From assembly GCF_902729405.1 (NCBI RefSeq), contig NZ_LR746496.1, positions 3,100,001-3,164,000 of the forward strand: DNA of 64,000 nt. Reading direction: 5' to 3'. Under the pieces are notes generated by a model. The model ran no database searches, was not told the DNA's origin, and worked only from the letters and a program-made list of their open reading frames with translations. Origin of the DNA: Acididesulfobacillus acetoxydans. GTDB lineage: Bacteria > Bacillota > Desulfitobacteriia > Desulfitobacteriales > Desulfitobacteriaceae. This document shows positions 16,195 through 38,903 of the stretch, one piece after another. A program made the translations under genes and the position numbers. Each line of letters begins with the position of its first letter. Position 1 is the first letter of the stretch.

Positions 16195-16360
16195 AGCATC
16201 AACCCCCGGAACCGCACCCTGGGGGTTCACTCAATTCCAGGAGAATCAACTCCCCCCGCCTAACACCTTGATCGGTGTTTGCAATGAGAACTTGGGGAAC
16301 CGTATCCGGTATTGCACGCCCCCAAGCCCGATTCATTATGCCACTCATCTGTTCAAGGAT
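16195..16360 (+). ncRNA. Orphan omega-RNA (HEARO)-like fragment
   Basis: The stretch 16290-16345 reads CTTGGGGAA, 12 bases, TTGCACGCCCCCA, one base, GCCCG, one base, TT, one base, ATTA. The omega-RNA upstream of iscB (minus strand, near 36940-36890) has the same blocks in the same order: CTTGGGGAA, 15 bases, TTGCACGCCCCCA, G, GCCCG, then TTGATTA. Outer pairing CTTGGGG/CCCCCAAG is kept, but the inner stem of the iscB copy is not. No iscB follows; the next gene is a PBP. Probably a decayed copy or relic. Function unknown. Confidence 0.45.
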
Positions 16361-32640: not shown

Positions 32641-32910
32641 ATGGTGATTAAGCCCACAACGGCTCTGAGAACAGAGCTTGGTGAAATAACGAGGATATGT
32701 AAAGAAAAGTCTGAACCCGTTTATTTGACAAAGAATGGCGAGGGTGAACTGGTTGTCATGAGCATTGCCGCGTATGAACGAAGAGAAGCTATGCTCAACC
32801 TGAGAGCCAAACTGTTGGAAGCGGAGCAGCAGCGGCTTAACGGAACGCCGACTTACACGACGGATGATGTGAGAGGGTATATCAGGGGTCTCCATCATGA
32901 GCAGGCATAG
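32641..32910 (+). CDS. Phd/YefM-family antitoxin
   Basis: 89 residues. MVIKPTTALRTELGEITRICKEKSEPVYLTKNGEGELVVMS is the DNA-binding Phd/YefM fold; the C-terminal part, with basic and acidic helices, should wrap the toxin. It overlaps the toxin gene by 14 bases, the usual antitoxin-first order. Antitoxins of this class repress their own promoter. Ribosome site GGGAGTG upstream of the ATG. Confidence 0.88.
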   Translation: MVIKPTTALRTELGEITRICKEKSEPVYLTKNGEGELVVMSIAAYERREAMLNLRAKLLEAEQQRLNGTPTYTTDDVRGYIRGLHHEQA

Positions 32911-33196
32911 AGTCACGATGCTGCAAATCGCCCGTGAGGACATGGTTGAAATATACCTTTACATTGCGGCGGACAGTCCGAAAGCGGCACTGGACCTGGC
33001 AGAGAAGGTGGCCGGGAAAATTGACACACTCGCGGACTTTCCGCTCATCGGAAAAATCGTACCTGACACCGAGCTGGCAAAACAGGAATACCGTATGCTG
33101 ATGATCGATGGCTATATTGCGTTTTATAAGGTGGTAGGTGATAAGGTTGTAGTGTACAGAGTGTTGAATGCCGCGCGAAATTACCCCGATTTATGA
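32897..33196 (+). CDS. RelE/ParE-family toxin
   Basis: 99 residues with the RelE/ParE pattern: VTMLQIAREDMVEIYLYIAADSPKAALDLAEKV, then FPLIGKIVP, YRMLMIDGYIAFYKVVGDKVVVYRVLNAARNY. RelE members cut ribosome-bound mRNA and ParE members poison gyrase; the sequence alone does not settle which. Translation is coupled to the antitoxin by overlap. The gene pair lies in a 1.2-kb stretch with no other intact genes to the left and the ABC-F gene 36 bases to the right. Confidence 0.88.
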   Translation: MSRHRVTMLQIAREDMVEIYLYIAADSPKAALDLAEKVAGKIDTLADFPLIGKIVPDTELAKQEYRMLMIDGYIAFYKVVGDKVVVYRVLNAARNYPDL

Positions 33197-33232: not shown

Positions 33233-35188
33233 ATGGATGTTTTAACGGCTGAAAACCTGACAAAAAGCTATGGCGAAAAAGTACTTTTCTCTGAGATATC
33301 TTTTGGTATTGATGAAGGAGATAAGATAGGAATTATTGGGGTGAACGGCGCAGGCAAGTCGACGTTGTTAAAGATTTTGGCGGGCGTGGAATGGCCGGAT
33401 CAGGGTCAAGTCACGGTCGGAAACAGTGTGCGCCTCGAGTACCTGCCCCAAAATCCGGATTTTGAGGATGAGGCGACGGTCTTGCAGCAGGTATTCAAAG
33501 GAACTTCACCGGTGATGCAGCTTCTGAATGCTTACGAATCGGCGCTTGAGAAGCTCACGAATCATCCGGATCACCCCGCATACCAACGAGGGCTTCTGTC
33601 CTTGGGGCAGAAAATGGACGCTGCTAATGCCTGGCAACTGGAAAGTGAAGCGAAGACCGTTCTCAATAAACTGGGAATTCACGAGTTTGATGCGGCGGTG
33701 GGGAGGTTATCGGGCGGCCAGCGCAAAAGAGTGGCTTTGGCGAGTGCCCTCATCAACCCGGCGGAAATACTCGTTCTGGATGAGCCCACCAACCACATCG
33801 ACAATGATACGGTGGATTGGTTAGAGCAATATTTAAACAAGCGCAAGGGTGCGCTGATCATGATCACGCACGACCGCTATTTCCTGGATCGGATGGTTAC
33901 CCGGATTATGGAGCTAGACCAGGGAAAACTCTATCCATACCCGGGCAACTACAGTCGTTACTTGGAACTGAAGGCCGGACGCCTGGAACGGGAAGAGGCT
34001 TCAGAGCGCAAGTGGCAAAACCGTTTGCGTAACGAGCTGGCCTGGATCCAACGGGGGGCCCAAGGGCGTTCCACTAAACAAAAAGCTAGGATTGAGCGTT
34101 TTAAGAAACTTCAGGCCGAAAAACCGCCGGAACCTTTGGGACATGTCGAAATTGCCACTGGGGCATCCCGCTTGGGCAAAAAAGTCTTGGCCTGGACTCA
34201 CCTGCATAAAGAGTTTTCAGGCCGGGGTGTTGTGATCGAGGATTTTAGTTACAGCTTGTTAAGAAATGATCGGATAGGGATTATTGGCCCGAATGGGAGC
34301 GGTAAATCGACTCTGTTGAACTTACTGGCCGGGCGCAGTGTTCCGGAAAGCGGCTGTGTCGATTGGGGTTCCACGGTCAAAATCGGCTATTTTGCCCAGG
34401 AGAACACGGAGATGAATCCTGATACTCGGGTGATTGACTATATCAAAGAGGTTGCGGAAGTGATTCCCACTTCCGATGGGAGGACCGTGACGGCCGCCCA
34501 AATGCTGGAACGTTTTTTGTTTGTGCCCTCGTCCCAGTGGACGGCCATTTCGAAGCTCTCCGGGGGAGAAAAGCGCAGGCTCTATCTTCTGCACATCTTG
34601 ATGGGGGCTCCCAATGTCCTCTTAATGGACGAGCCCACTAACGATTTGGACATTCAGACTTTGACGGTTTTGGAAGAGTACCTGGATGAGTTTCCGGGGG
34701 CTGTTTTGGCCGTTTCGCACGACAGGTATTTTCTCGATCGCATGGCCGGCAAGATTTTTGCTTTCACGGGAACAGGGCAGATTGAAGCCTATGTGGGAAA
34801 CTACTCGGATTATCAGGCGTGGCAACTTTCGGGACAAGTCGGCCCGTCTGTGGAGGTCCCGTCTGAGAAGGCTCAGCTTAAGAAGGCGGAATTAGAAGAA
34901 GAAAAACCGGAGAGAAGGAAAGAACGCCCGTTGAAAATGAGCTATAAAGAACAACGGGAATATGAGCAAATAGAAGACCAAATTGCGCAAACGGAAGAAG
35001 AACTCAAAGAGATTCAACATGAAATGAATGAACAGGGAAGCAATTTTTCCAGACTGCAGGAATTGACGATAAAGCAACAGGCGGCTGAGCAGAAGCTTGA
35101 TGAAATGTTGGAGCGTTGGACCTACCTCAATGAATTGGCAGAAAAGATTAGGCAGGGCAGAAGTTGTACTGCAAACATTTCGTCCTGA
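33233..35188 (+). CDS. ABC-F ATPase (Uup-like)
   Basis: 651 residues, two ABC domains without membrane parts. Domain 1: GVNGAGKST, LSGGQRKRVALASALI, LVLDEPTNHID. Domain 2: GPNGSGKST, LSGGEKRRLYLLHILM, LLMDEPTNDLD. A charged linker, then a C-terminal coiled coil (EQIEDQIAQTEEELKEIQHE region), which marks Uup-type members. ABC-F proteins act on ribosomes or DNA intermediates rather than as transporters. The sequence is intact. Directly downstream of the toxin-antitoxin pair; a weak ribosome site (GAGAG) precedes the ATG. Confidence 0.9.
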   Translation: MDVLTAENLTKSYGEKVLFSEISFGIDEGDKIGIIGVNGAGKSTLLKILAGVEWPDQGQVTVGNSVRLEYLPQNPDFEDEATVLQQVFKGTSPVMQLLNAYESALEKLTNHPDHPAYQRGLLSLGQKMDAANAWQLESEAKTVLNKLGIHEFDAAVGRLSGGQRKRVALASALINPAEILVLDEPTNHIDNDTVDWLEQYLNKRKGALIMITHDRYFLDRMVTRIMELDQGKLYPYPGNYSRYLELKAGRLEREEASERKWQNRLRNELAWIQRGAQGRSTKQKARIERFKKLQAEKPPEPLGHVEIATGASRLGKKVLAWTHLHKEFSGRGVVIEDFSYSLLRNDRIGIIGPNGSGKSTLLNLLAGRSVPESGCVDWGSTVKIGYFAQENTEMNPDTRVIDYIKEVAEVIPTSDGRTVTAAQMLERFLFVPSSQWTAISKLSGGEKRRLYLLHILMGAPNVLLMDEPTNDLDIQTLTVLEEYLDEFPGAVLAVSHDRYFLDRMAGKIFAFTGTGQIEAYVGNYSDYQAWQLSGQVGPSVEVPSEKAQLKKAELEEEKPERRKERPLKMSYKEQREYEQIEDQIAQTEEELKEIQHEMNEQGSNFSRLQELTIKQQAAEQKLDEMLERWTYLNELAEKIRQGRSCTANISS

Positions 35189-35305
35189 GGACTACAGATA
35201 CATTTATACCAGAAAAAATGTCATCATTTTCCGCCTGTGCTATAATTTCTTTCTAAATGCTCATTGAATGGTTCCTGAACATCTACTCCTTTTTTACCAA
35301 TGCTC

Positions 35306-35344
35306 AGCGTCCATCCCCGACCTCTAAGGTCGGGGATGGACGCT
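35306..35344. repeat. Perfect 18-bp hairpin at the right end of the IscB element
   Basis: AGCGTCCATCCCCGACCT and its exact complement flank a 3-base loop, just after the iscB stop. It fits a subterminal transposon hairpin; it has no T-tract suited to termination. Confidence 0.8.
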
Positions 35345-35349
35345 GGTTC

Positions 35350-36751
35350 CTACCTGAAACATAGTCCTTTCCCATAATATAACGGGCTAACTAACTCTGT
35401 CTTCACCGGCTTGGCTAGATCCGTTAACTTAATATAAGCTCCCCTGTTCTGAATGCCTTTCACGGAAAACCTCTGTCCGGCTAAAAGGACTGTATCTCCC
35501 GGTTGGTATGCATGCCGCCTCTTCCGTATACTGCGACGGCCTTTTGAGAGTTTCCGACCTCGAAAAACCCGCAGATTAGGTCCGTTCAAGTTCTTGTTCC
35601 GGGTTCTTCTGCCGGAAAATAACTCCCCACCGGAAGCTTTCTCACTTGTGCGAATGTCGATGTACCTGGCATCGTAGAACAACTCCAAGCTCCGATTATT
35701 CCGCCGAATCTGCTTCACCTGTAGCGGATCAACTCTTTGCTGGCGGGTTCCTCCAGCGATACAAAACGCATCGTTGGCATGAGACTTAACAAGTCCTAAC
35801 TCAATGCGTTTTGCCTTTGTGACATGCCCATAGGTGTGTTCACAACCAAGGGCATTAACCAGTTTCCAGCGCACAATCGACATAAATGTCTCCGGCTTGT
35901 AACTTTTGACCTTCAGCTGCCAACCGTGCAGAAATCCGCTAGGCTGATGATTGGCCGGGGTATGACATTTTGTGCAGAGCGTGATCAAATTCCCTGGCCT
36001 GTCACTTCGATCTTCTTTCCAGAAGCCGATATGATGCACTTGCAACACTTTTTCTCCGGCTTTGTTTTTGCACTCCGGGTTTTGGCATTGATGATTATCC
36101 CGGTGAAAGATGTACTCCCGGAGGTTCCAGAATCCATACTGTTCGCCCTGTTGGTAGCCCTTCCCTTCGATTCCGGGATTTTTGATCGCCTGGATGTCGA
36201 AGGCAGCTACTTCTACGACAACTTTGCTTATGGGAACCAAGGTAGAAATTTTGTCTACCAAGTGGATATGAGTATCCAGCTTGTTCTGTAGACTGGGAGC
36301 CAGCCACCCTGCCGGTTTTCTGCGGTTACTAAAACGCTTGGCCCGGTAGCGAAGTCTGTTTCGCCGCTGCCTGCGGTACATAGAACGTTCCTTGTTGCGT
36401 TCGACCTGGCCTTGAAGCAAGGTTAATTCCCCAGCTATCAGTTCCTTTGTTGTATTGACCGCTGAGAAACCCACATGGGTATACCCGGAGTCCAAGCCTA
36501 AAGCAGCCGATTGCGTATACTCCGTCGTTTCATACATAAGCTGGACAGTGAAAGGCTTTGCCTGGATCCCCTTAGCTTTGCCATCCCTTAAGCATCCTTC
36601 GTACTTTGCCATGTCGTTCAGTCGGCATCAACGGTGTCCCGTCTTTCGATAATACATAGACCACGTTTTTCATCTCCTCGAAGAGATAAGTCTGTCTAAA
36701 AGACAGTGGGTCCACATCGCCAATGTTAATGCCAGGTTTTTGTGTGAGCAT
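35350..36751 (-). CDS. iscB: IscB RNA-guided nuclease gene carrying one frameshift
   Basis: Two frames joined. Frame A (ATG 36751, GGAG five bases before) encodes the N-terminal PLMP domain: VYVLSKDGTPLMPTERHGKVRRMLK, then a stop. Frame B continues to 35350: DGKAKGIQAKPFTVQL, RuvC-I LGLDSGYTHVGFSAV, an Arg-rich bridge helix (RRQRRNRLRYRAKR), RuvC-II VVVEVAAFDIQAI, HNH CQNPECKN with VLQVHHIGFW and LCTKCH, RuvC-III KSHANDAFCIAGG, and a C-terminal domain. All nuclease residues are present. The break is one extra G in CTTAAGGGATGG (about 36590); removing it restores a normal joint. IscB is the ancestor-like relative of Cas9, guided by omega-RNA. It may be a pseudogene or a slippage site. Confidence 0.88.
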
Positions 36752-36980
36752 CACTTCTCCTACCCATCAGAGATGTTCAGACACTCACCGCAGGCCCTGG
36801 GACGTGTGGAGTATCCCAGGGTGCCTATATATTCTGGCTTAACGGAGTGGAAGGCGGTCCCCTTACGGTGAACATCCCGACCACTGGGGCTAATCAACCG
36901 GGCCTGGGGGCGTGCAAGACTGGCTTACACGTTTCCCCAAGCCCCCACTTAACGCCGGTTACGGCGTTAAGTGGGGGTAG
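36752..36980 (-). ncRNA. Omega-RNA (HEARO RNA) of the IscB element
   Basis: The 230 bases directly 5' of iscB are densely structured: a perfect 16-bp stem with a 4-base loop at 36942-36977, a CGTGTAAG/CTTGCACG stem inside CTTGGGG/CCCCCAG (about 36940-36903), and CCCTGGGA/TCCCAGGG (36795-36821). Position and orientation match omega-RNAs, with the guide at the 5' end, that is just right of 36978. The guide itself cannot be delimited here. Confidence 0.75.
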
Positions 36981-37003
36981 TTGACATTATTGTCTAAACC
37001 GTT

Positions 37004-37020
37004 TAACCATATCATGGTTA
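37004..37020. repeat. Small perfect hairpin at the left end of the IscB element
   Basis: TAACCAT, ATC loop, ATGGTTA. It resembles the short imperfect hairpins near IS200/IS605 ends. Confidence 0.5.
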
Positions 37021-37248
37021 GTATCCTGGTCCAATCGAGGCGGGTTCTAGAACTTGGTAAGGGGCAAGTAGCGGGGTGAGTTGACCTCGGGTAAGTTTGA
37101 CATAAGGCTATTTCTCAGAATCATTCCTATGATATTCCTCTATAGTTTTGATAATCCGTACGGAACATCCGAAGATCGTAGCAATAATCAGGCATGTTCC
37201 GATCCAAATTGCATTGGTAGGATTATTCGCATCTAAGAACATACCTAG

Positions 37249-38903
37249 ATTGCCCTGAAAAAGTAGGTTTGCAAACCGTCCCTTGACCGACCCCCTGGGA
37301 TCGGAATACATCAGTATGAATCCCCGGCATTGTAGAGGGGTATTCCTTGCCATTTCCTAATTCATGGCGGCCAATCTTCTTAAATTGTAGGTCAGTATGC
37401 CAAATCCCACCCAGATGCTAACTCCGCGGTGTCCTCTGAGCAGACTCCTCCCCAGGCCATATTTACGTTTCAAGATGCTAATGGTTCCTTCTCCACCAGC
37501 ACGCCATGCTTGCAGACGTCGAAACCATCTTTGCCTTTCATGGGTTTGTCGCTTCTGAGTTTTCTTGCCCTTCTTTGGGATGGATATTCGTTTTATCCCC
37601 AGTTCGGTTAAAGCTGCTTCATTCTTACCACTGCTGTAACCACGGTCAGTGGCAACAGCGTAAGGGATCCGCCCAGTGTTTTCGATGTGGCGTCTCACGG
37701 TGCCCAAGAGCAAACTTTCATCGCTGGGGTTGCCTATATGGATTTTGTAATCCGTAACCAGACGGTCTTCATTCTCTGTGATTTCGGTCTTATAGCCAAA
37801 TTCCGTCGGGCTCTTCAACTTGCCCTTCTGGATAGGCCTCGCGTCAGGATCATAGAGGCTAATTACCCGTTGCGGGATGTGTGTTTTTCCGCTGTTCACC
37901 TGAAGCGTTTGATTGACAATCTTGTCCGTGGTATGAATGAGCTTGTCCAATTTCTCGATCGTATTTTTTAGAGCTGGGCTTATTTGCTCGCCCCAAGTCT
38001 CTTCAACTTTATCCATTATCCGATGGGCATCGGAAATCGTCTCAATCGCTTTATCCACAAGCTTATCCGTGATGTTGCGAACCTCCTGTACCGCCTCATG
38101 GCTTCGCCGTTTCAAGGTCTTGCCGATTTCCAGTATCCGTTTTTTCGTTGAACGAAAACGATTCCTCATCTTAGGAACTGTGCCACTCACTTGATCGCAA
38201 AGGCGGTTCGCCTGTCGGGTTATGGTTTTTACTGCATCCGCCAGCAGATGGGCATCCGTTGGGTAGTGAACATTGGATTCGGTTACTGTAGTGTCCGTAC
38301 GCAGCCGCCGGTTCCGTGTCATCTGTTCCTGACTCGCCTTAGTAACAAGTTTTTTGTTCAGATCCTCAATGATTTCGTCCCCGTATTTCTGGCTCAGCTT
38401 GATCAATGTCGTACTGTGCGGCACTAAGGCATCGAGATCAACGCGGCAGAACCGCCGCCATTTGATACTGTCACTGACTTCGCTAACAAGTGTTTCATAG
38501 CCAAATCCATAACAGAATTTGAGAAACATTAGACGGAGATAAGTTTCCACCGGAACAGTTGGTCGGCCAATACGAATATTCCAGTGAGAGAGAAAGGGCT
38601 CCATAAATCGCTCATCATCCAAGAGACGATCAACCGTCTTGAGTTCTGGGCTTAGTTCCAGCACTTCCTTCGGCAAAATGGAGTCCCAAATTGTAAGCTG
38701 TTCGTTGCGAAGTCGTAACATTTTTTGCCCCCCAAAAAAGGATTTTCATGTCCCTTTGGAGAACCACAGGAACGAGGAATTCTCTAAAGGGTGGTTGTGG
38801 AGTTTCGTTGTTTGGTCACTTCTAAATTTCCACAAAATCCTAGTGAATTCCTTTTTGTTTCGAGGGATTTTTGCACAGAGTTTGCTTAGTTTTTCAGGGC
38901 AAT
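37249..38903. mobile_element. Complete insertion sequence, 1655 bp, CTAG target duplication
   Basis: Terminal inverted repeats begin ATTGCCCTGAAAAA at 37249 and, as complement, end at 38903; the first 14 bases are identical, with weaker matches beyond. CTAG is duplicated at 37245-37248 and 38904-38907. It contains one transposase gene on the minus strand. Both ends and the duplication are intact, so insertion looks recent. Confidence 0.9.
37357..38721 (-). CDS. IS transposase (IS4/IS5-like DDE, DUF772-type N-terminus)
   Basis: 454 residues, intact. The N-terminal part (IRIGRPTVPVETYLRLMFLKFCYGFGYETL) is the DUF772-like domain. Catalytic triad candidates are RLRTDTTVTESNVHYPTDA (first Asp), YAVATDRGYSSGKNEAAL (second Asp) and GGEGTISILKRKYGLGRSLLRG (Glu). 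The long helical middle (about residues 165-270) is typical of the ISNCY/IS1182-like relatives. Exact family needs a database; the ends and the 4-bp CTAG duplication fit a cut-and-paste DDE element. Gene and terminal repeats are complete, so it is probably active. Confidence 0.88.
   Translation of the reverse strand: MLRLRNEQLTIWDSILPKEVLELSPELKTVDRLLDDERFMEPFLSHWNIRIGRPTVPVETYLRLMFLKFCYGFGYETLVSEVSDSIKWRRFCRVDLDALVPHSTTLIKLSQKYGDEIIEDLNKKLVTKASQEQMTRNRRLRTDTTVTESNVHYPTDAHLLADAVKTITRQANRLCDQVSGTVPKMRNRFRSTKKRILEIGKTLKRRSHEAVQEVRNITDKLVDKAIETISDAHRIMDKVEETWGEQISPALKNTIEKLDKLIHTTDKIVNQTLQVNSGKTHIPQRVISLYDPDARPIQKGKLKSPTEFGYKTEITENEDRLVTDYKIHIGNPSDESLLLGTVRRHIENTGRIPYAVATDRGYSSGKNEAALTELGIKRISIPKKGKKTQKRQTHERQRWFRRLQAWRAGGEGTISILKRKYGLGRSLLRGHRGVSIWVGFGILTYNLRRLAAMN

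Follow-up and report, generated by a model that had tools for sequence, protein, structure and literature searches.

Mobile elements that carry IscB, an RNA-guided DNA cutter and a relative of the ancestor of Cas9, are already well known, and broken copies of them are to be expected. In those passages of the structural literature that deal with it, the PLMP domain is described as contacting the terminal hairpins of the omega-RNA as well as the RuvC domain (PMC9640706, PMC9581776). A passage of the second source also reports that IsrB, which is without PLMP, was tested, and mentions standalone omega-RNAs that are able to serve IscB in trans (PMC9581776).

The locus treated here lies in a stretch of 64,000 nucleotides (the window; GC content 53.8%) of the genome of Acididesulfobacillus acetoxydans, which is available as one contig of 4,520,225 bases, and it is an ordinary copy of this known kind of mobile element. 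The reading that we prefer, with a probability of about 0.82, is that of an ISC-type element of which the nuclease gene was recently killed by a one-base change and the hairpins were perfected, and which probably no longer moves, its omega-RNA perhaps still being transcribed. A mechanism beyond decay is not supported.

Layout of the element and its omega-RNA

The element covers approximately positions 35297-36985 of the window on the minus strand (1.7 kb), and on that strand its parts follow each other in the order GTCAAC start, hairpin, HEARO/omega-RNA, iscB, second hairpin and TTGG/TAAAA end. The GTCAAC start is conserved in the aligned relatives, and the TTG-T-AAA end is kept in most of them. 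With its subterminal hairpins, its conserved ends and the absence of a transposase gene, a profile search having found no Y1 transposase match inside the element and no tnpA being present there, it is a non-autonomous element of the IS200/IS605-like (ISC) type, as proposed in the preliminary description, which was made from the DNA letters and their open reading frames. The left limit (35290-35297, minus strand), where the sequence reads ...TTGG/TAAAA in agreement with the ends of most aligned relatives, would also hold the insertion motif and a putative TAM, for which the published IscB TAM serves as the model.

The element was probably inserted downstream of an ABC-F gene (33233-35188), which itself adjoins a Phd/YefM antitoxin and ParE toxin pair at 32641-33196 (Pfam 39.3 and 54.0 bits). 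To the left of the element, a stretch of 37 bases (35251-35287) is 89% identical to the palindrome that terminates a different repeated element, matches being reported at five other places. Positions 37246-38721 of the window hold an ISNCY-type DDE insertion sequence (NF033593, 481.6 bits), the end region of which has 12 matches in the genome, itself included.

Directly 5' of iscB lies the omega-RNA (36706-36985, minus strand), the 5' end of which coincides with the GTCAAC end of the element and which could be aligned with six relatives. A structured RNA had been predicted in this place, at 36752-36990, and its identification as omega-RNA had been made dependent on a comparison with the HEARO covariance model. 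In cmscan, RF02033 matched over its full length (model positions 1-211 of 211) with 103.8 bits, which clears the gathering score of 83 bits, and this match is the only one reported in the whole genome; the identification therefore stands, the predicted limits having been slightly off.

The sequence upstream of the conserved GTCAAC varies among the aligned copies, and it is in this variable flank, in the DNA just outside the element end and 5' of the omega-RNA, that the guide region is predicted (36986-37005, minus strand, the length being an estimate). The expectation that the guide should match the DNA to the right of the element is retained with a corrected position, just right of 36985 instead of 36978. 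For the 15 nt of the guide nearest to the element, no other place with zero or one mismatch was found in the genome; with two mismatches there are 10 other places, against 5 for a control with the reversed pattern. When an empty site was sought in G001, the one other genome of the genus compared, neither flank query found a counterpart: the left-flank query gave a single match of 137 bases (69%) inside the ABC-F gene, and the right-flank query matches only at the neighbouring insertion sequence.

By analogy with published IscB and TnpB work, the intact ancestor of this element would have made an IscB-omega-RNA complex with a guide transcribed from the flanking DNA outside the element, and this complex would have been capable of guided DNA cleavage. 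Since the guide would match the donor site once this had been emptied, cutting of that site would favour retention of the element. The omega-RNA of the present copy may still be transcribed.

The frame break in iscB

The iscB gene is distributed over two frames that are one base apart and that overlap by 41 nt, both being open there. An N-terminal fragment of 60 aa with the PLMP motif LMPTERHG (36572-36754, minus strand) ends at an early stop and matches positions 1-24 of the Pfam RRXRR profile with 22 bits, which for this short fragment alone is below the cut-off of 25 bits. The remainder (35350-36612, minus strand) is an open frame of 420 aa that comprises RuvC I-III, an Arg-rich bridge and HNH; it matches RRXRR positions 22-174 with 163.3 bits and Pfam HNH with 29.4 bits, both above the cut-offs, as well as NCBIfam NF040563 (guided_IscB) with 291.1 bits (cut-off 175). 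Since the two frames match complementary parts of RRXRR, they represent one gene that is cut by a one-base frame change.

A RuvC domain interrupted by an Arg-rich bridge and accompanied by HNH is what makes the encoded protein an IscB, and the N-terminal PLMP sequence is present, but in a frame different from that of the RuvC part. When the long frame is aligned with the solved IscBs 11hr_A and 11hx_A, the motifs D (RuvC I), E (RuvC II), HH (HNH) and H..D (RuvC III) correspond by eye; catalytic roles for them in OgeuIscB are named in a passage of PMC9640706. In a seven-row alignment, the one-base difference in length from the relatives sits in or next to a GGG run at 36585-36587 (plus-strand letters, the gene being on the minus strand). 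On all these points, i.e. an IscB relative with PLMP, RuvC I-III, Arg bridge and HNH, its division over two frames by a single base near 36590, and intact nuclease residues, the profile matches and alignments agree with what the preliminary description had stated. Through the one-base change, PLMP and the nuclease have recently come to lie in different frames. In view of the contacts that PLMP makes with the omega-RNA hairpins and with RuvC, either piece, if translated, would be expected to cut under guidance hardly or not at all.

Comparison with other copies indicates that the break is young and private to this one. It occurs in none of the six aligned relatives (L019-L024, of which five are distinct, the aligned stretch being alike in L021 and L024). 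These relatives do possess the PLMP-encoding frame, on the presence of which the original interpretation had been made to depend. In 82 class-level genomes, RRXRR gave 14 matches distributed over 7 genomes, and 10 of these matches begin at profile position 1-2 in a single frame; the other four are the present copy, the scrap L009 from its own genome, L085, which has an internal deletion, and L083, which lies at the edge of a contig. The absence of the break from the six relatives and the ten single-frame matches together argue that it is private.

The age of the break was approached by counting private differences by codon position over 402 codons of the window copy, L019 and L020. At codon positions 1/2/3 there are 20/13/64 such differences on the window branch, the corresponding values being 17/8/69 for L019 and 32/22/76 for L020. 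Compared with L019, Fisher tests indicate no significant loosening of the window branch (p = 0.28 for codon positions, 0.81 for codon classes). According to a rough two-state split, the neutral share of the window branch is 0.09 with L019 as reference (95th percentile 0.23), below zero with L020 (95th percentile 0.06) and approximately 0 with both pooled (0.14). The dN/dS value with respect to L019 is 0.06-0.11; L019 has an in-frame stop of its own, and is thus an imperfect yardstick for constraint. The codon-position counts show no loosening of constraint on the window branch, which points to a recent break, and in combination with the absence from relatives this bears out the very recent decay that had been suspected.

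The possibility must be considered that the gene is in fact intact and that the break arose from an error in sequencing or assembly. Just one base, within a run of Gs, is concerned, the remainder of the gene is open and constraint on the window branch is unrelaxed, all of which an error would explain; the GGG run, however, has just three bases, and the genome contains several scraps of the same family, so that decay is usual here. The genome of A. acetoxydans INE, one chromosome of 4.52 Mbp with 53.65% GC and closest to CEB3, is presented in a passage of PMC8982180 as a PacBio assembly that was Illumina-corrected with Pilon, and if the genome used here is that of INE, a base-call error in a run of three Gs becomes less likely. 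An error is thus possible, but it is not favoured, and we consider it unlikely.

Two further explanations would leave a function to the divided gene. Programmed +1 ribosomal (or transcriptional) slippage could join the frames and tune the dose of IscB, and the preliminary description had indeed mentioned slippage as a way to restore the protein. Both frames are open over the overlap and the catalytic motifs are in place, which speaks for slippage, but a long slippery run is absent, the break is shared by 0/6 aligned relatives, and the 10 of 14 matches from the 82 genomes that start at position 1-2 are single-frame. No conserved slippage site was found in the six aligned relatives or the 82 class-level genomes, the break itself not being conserved among relatives as it would be with a programmed frameshift, and among the papers listed for IscB with frameshift and for IscB with programmed frameshift, OMEGA and PLMP, no title pointed to iscB slippage. 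We find this explanation scarcely credible. Restart of translation at the ATG at 36612 would give a PLMP-less IscB of 420 aa, which might be a working protein or a dominant-negative binder of omega-RNA. The corresponding frame is open and under constraint, but the latter is explained equally well if the frames were joined until recently; moreover, no Shine-Dalgarno-like stretch is visible by eye just upstream of 36612, and mutations in the PLMP motif lower cleavage according to a passage of PMC9640706. This makes a restart very unlikely.

End hairpins and mobility

The hairpin at the omega-RNA end (36942-36977, minus strand) folds into a perfect stem of 16 bp with a 4-nt loop, and the hairpin at the 3' end of iscB (35305-35345, minus strand) into a perfect stem of 19 bp with a 3-nt loop. 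No other perfect stem with a loop of 3-8 nt in the 64-kb window is as long as either of these two, the next one having 15 bp. In the close relatives folded the hairpins are imperfect: all seven other copies folded at the omega-RNA end have an unpaired bulge of 2 nt or worse, and the six others folded at the iscB 3' end all contain an internal loop of roughly 5x5. The count for the 5' hairpin leaves out L021, L023 and L024 (other hairpin form), L005 (decayed), L036 (the same copy as L025) and L040 (the same hairpin as L033); that for the 3' hairpin leaves out L020, L021, L023, L024, L028 and L036, as well as L035 and L039, in which the 3' end was not found. When folded separately, the 5' hairpin of L021 has a short stem with a 1x1 mismatch, and the 3' end of L020 differs from the usual end. 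The more distant relative L023 has a short, unbulged 5' stem of 8 bp and keeps the 3' internal loop.

The second hairpin, when inspected by eye, shows in its 3' arm a run of neighbouring differences from the relatives that all match the other arm, a pattern such as template switching would be expected to leave behind. According to the abstract of PMC8794818, a stem that is already present can have its pairing corrected by this process, and to judge from the sequence pattern, template switching during replication most likely perfected both hairpins. Such a double correction is uncommon.

Perfect hairpins probably weaken or end recognition by the cognate TnpA, which would make the element probably immobile. 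In passages of PMC8266576 it is reported that mutations that regularise the stem remove or reduce the activity of the E. coli REP transposase, and also that IS200/IS605 includes a subgroup with perfect palindromic ends, with IS200 and IS1451 as members; since this subgroup exists, perfect hairpins need not mean that mobility is lost. With two perfect hairpins in this copy and imperfect ones in its close relatives, nature has set up an experiment on whether the unpaired bases of ISC elements are required by TnpA. It could also be imagined that the template-switched hairpins lock the element in place, and that its fixed guide and the nuclease thereafter remained under selection for a role in the host until the recent break, or even through it by slippage, but this is highly improbable as compared to recent decay of an ordinary element.

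As to the transposase that may have mobilised the family, the genome has nine Y1 transposase matches, six of which have internal stops, and the 3' hairpin pattern of the family was found at none of the nine loci in the locus sequence scanned; no resident TnpA with matching ends was recognised in these stretches. The pattern has 0 matches in this genome (control 0) and 7 in the sister genome G001 (control 0). Two of the latter are the ends of L033 and L040, and one (L089) is too short to represent this hairpin; L086, L087, L091 and L092 were selected with the pattern and do not count as independent evidence. The pattern match in L093, considered as a TnpA-linked end, looks like chance. At six of the seven Y1 matches of the sister genome (L099 being left out), no matching TnpA was found in the locus sequence scanned.

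Relatives and comparison with described systems

A search with the element DNA against 45 family-level genomes gave matches in three of them (this genome, G001 and G039). In this genome, pieces of the same family are L002, L003, L005 and L009. L005, which is also in the window (16246-16338), is a decayed 5' HEARO piece with 74% identity to the element start (own-genome match, E 4.7e-8), downstream of a gene that by eye is peptidase-like. L002 (1501-1614) is a scrap that consists of the omega-RNA end and the iscB start, and it is flanked by genes that, by eye, we take to be purN and purH of purine synthesis.

Two elements of the sister genome have both ends and no iscB: L033 (1501-1925) contains a complete omega-RNA (114.9 bits), and L040 (1437-1760) has lost the middle of it. 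They share a linker of approximately 40 nt with L003 (1380-1560), the scrap in this genome. As these mini-elements keep omega-RNA sequence and both ends, they are plausible as passengers, and probably depend on IscB and TnpA. L033 resembles the standalone omega-RNAs mentioned in a passage of PMC9581776 in being a complete RNA without iscB, whereas L033 and L040 are distinguished from these as small elements with a shared linker.

The copies most similar to the present one are L020 of Peptococcaceae bacterium CEB3 and L019 of Bacillota MAG SKS1.bin106, with 80% and 83% DNA identity, respectively, along most of the element. An element of the sister genome G001 agrees with L020 in both its BLAST coordinates and its identity. 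Both share its start, as does L025 (SKS1.bin106), and L019 and L025 also share the usual 3' end. Unlike this copy, L019 and L020 have a single frame at the break point, and their end hairpins are imperfect where folded. All three have other peculiarities: in L019 the HNH region is followed by a stop, the usual 3' end is missing from L020, and in L025 an internal deletion removes the PLMP part.

Among described transposons, IS608 has imperfect palindromic ends according to passages of PMC5934647 and PMC8266576, in which it is like the relatives, with their unpaired bases in the hairpins; the present copy differs from ends of this type by its perfect hairpins, and there is no tnpA in the element. 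With the IscB systems represented by NF040563, by the solved proteins 11hr and 7xht and by RF02033, it has in common the domain order, the catalytic motifs, an omega-RNA located 5' of the gene and a guide at the edge of the element, whereas it is set apart from them by a gene that is split between two frames.
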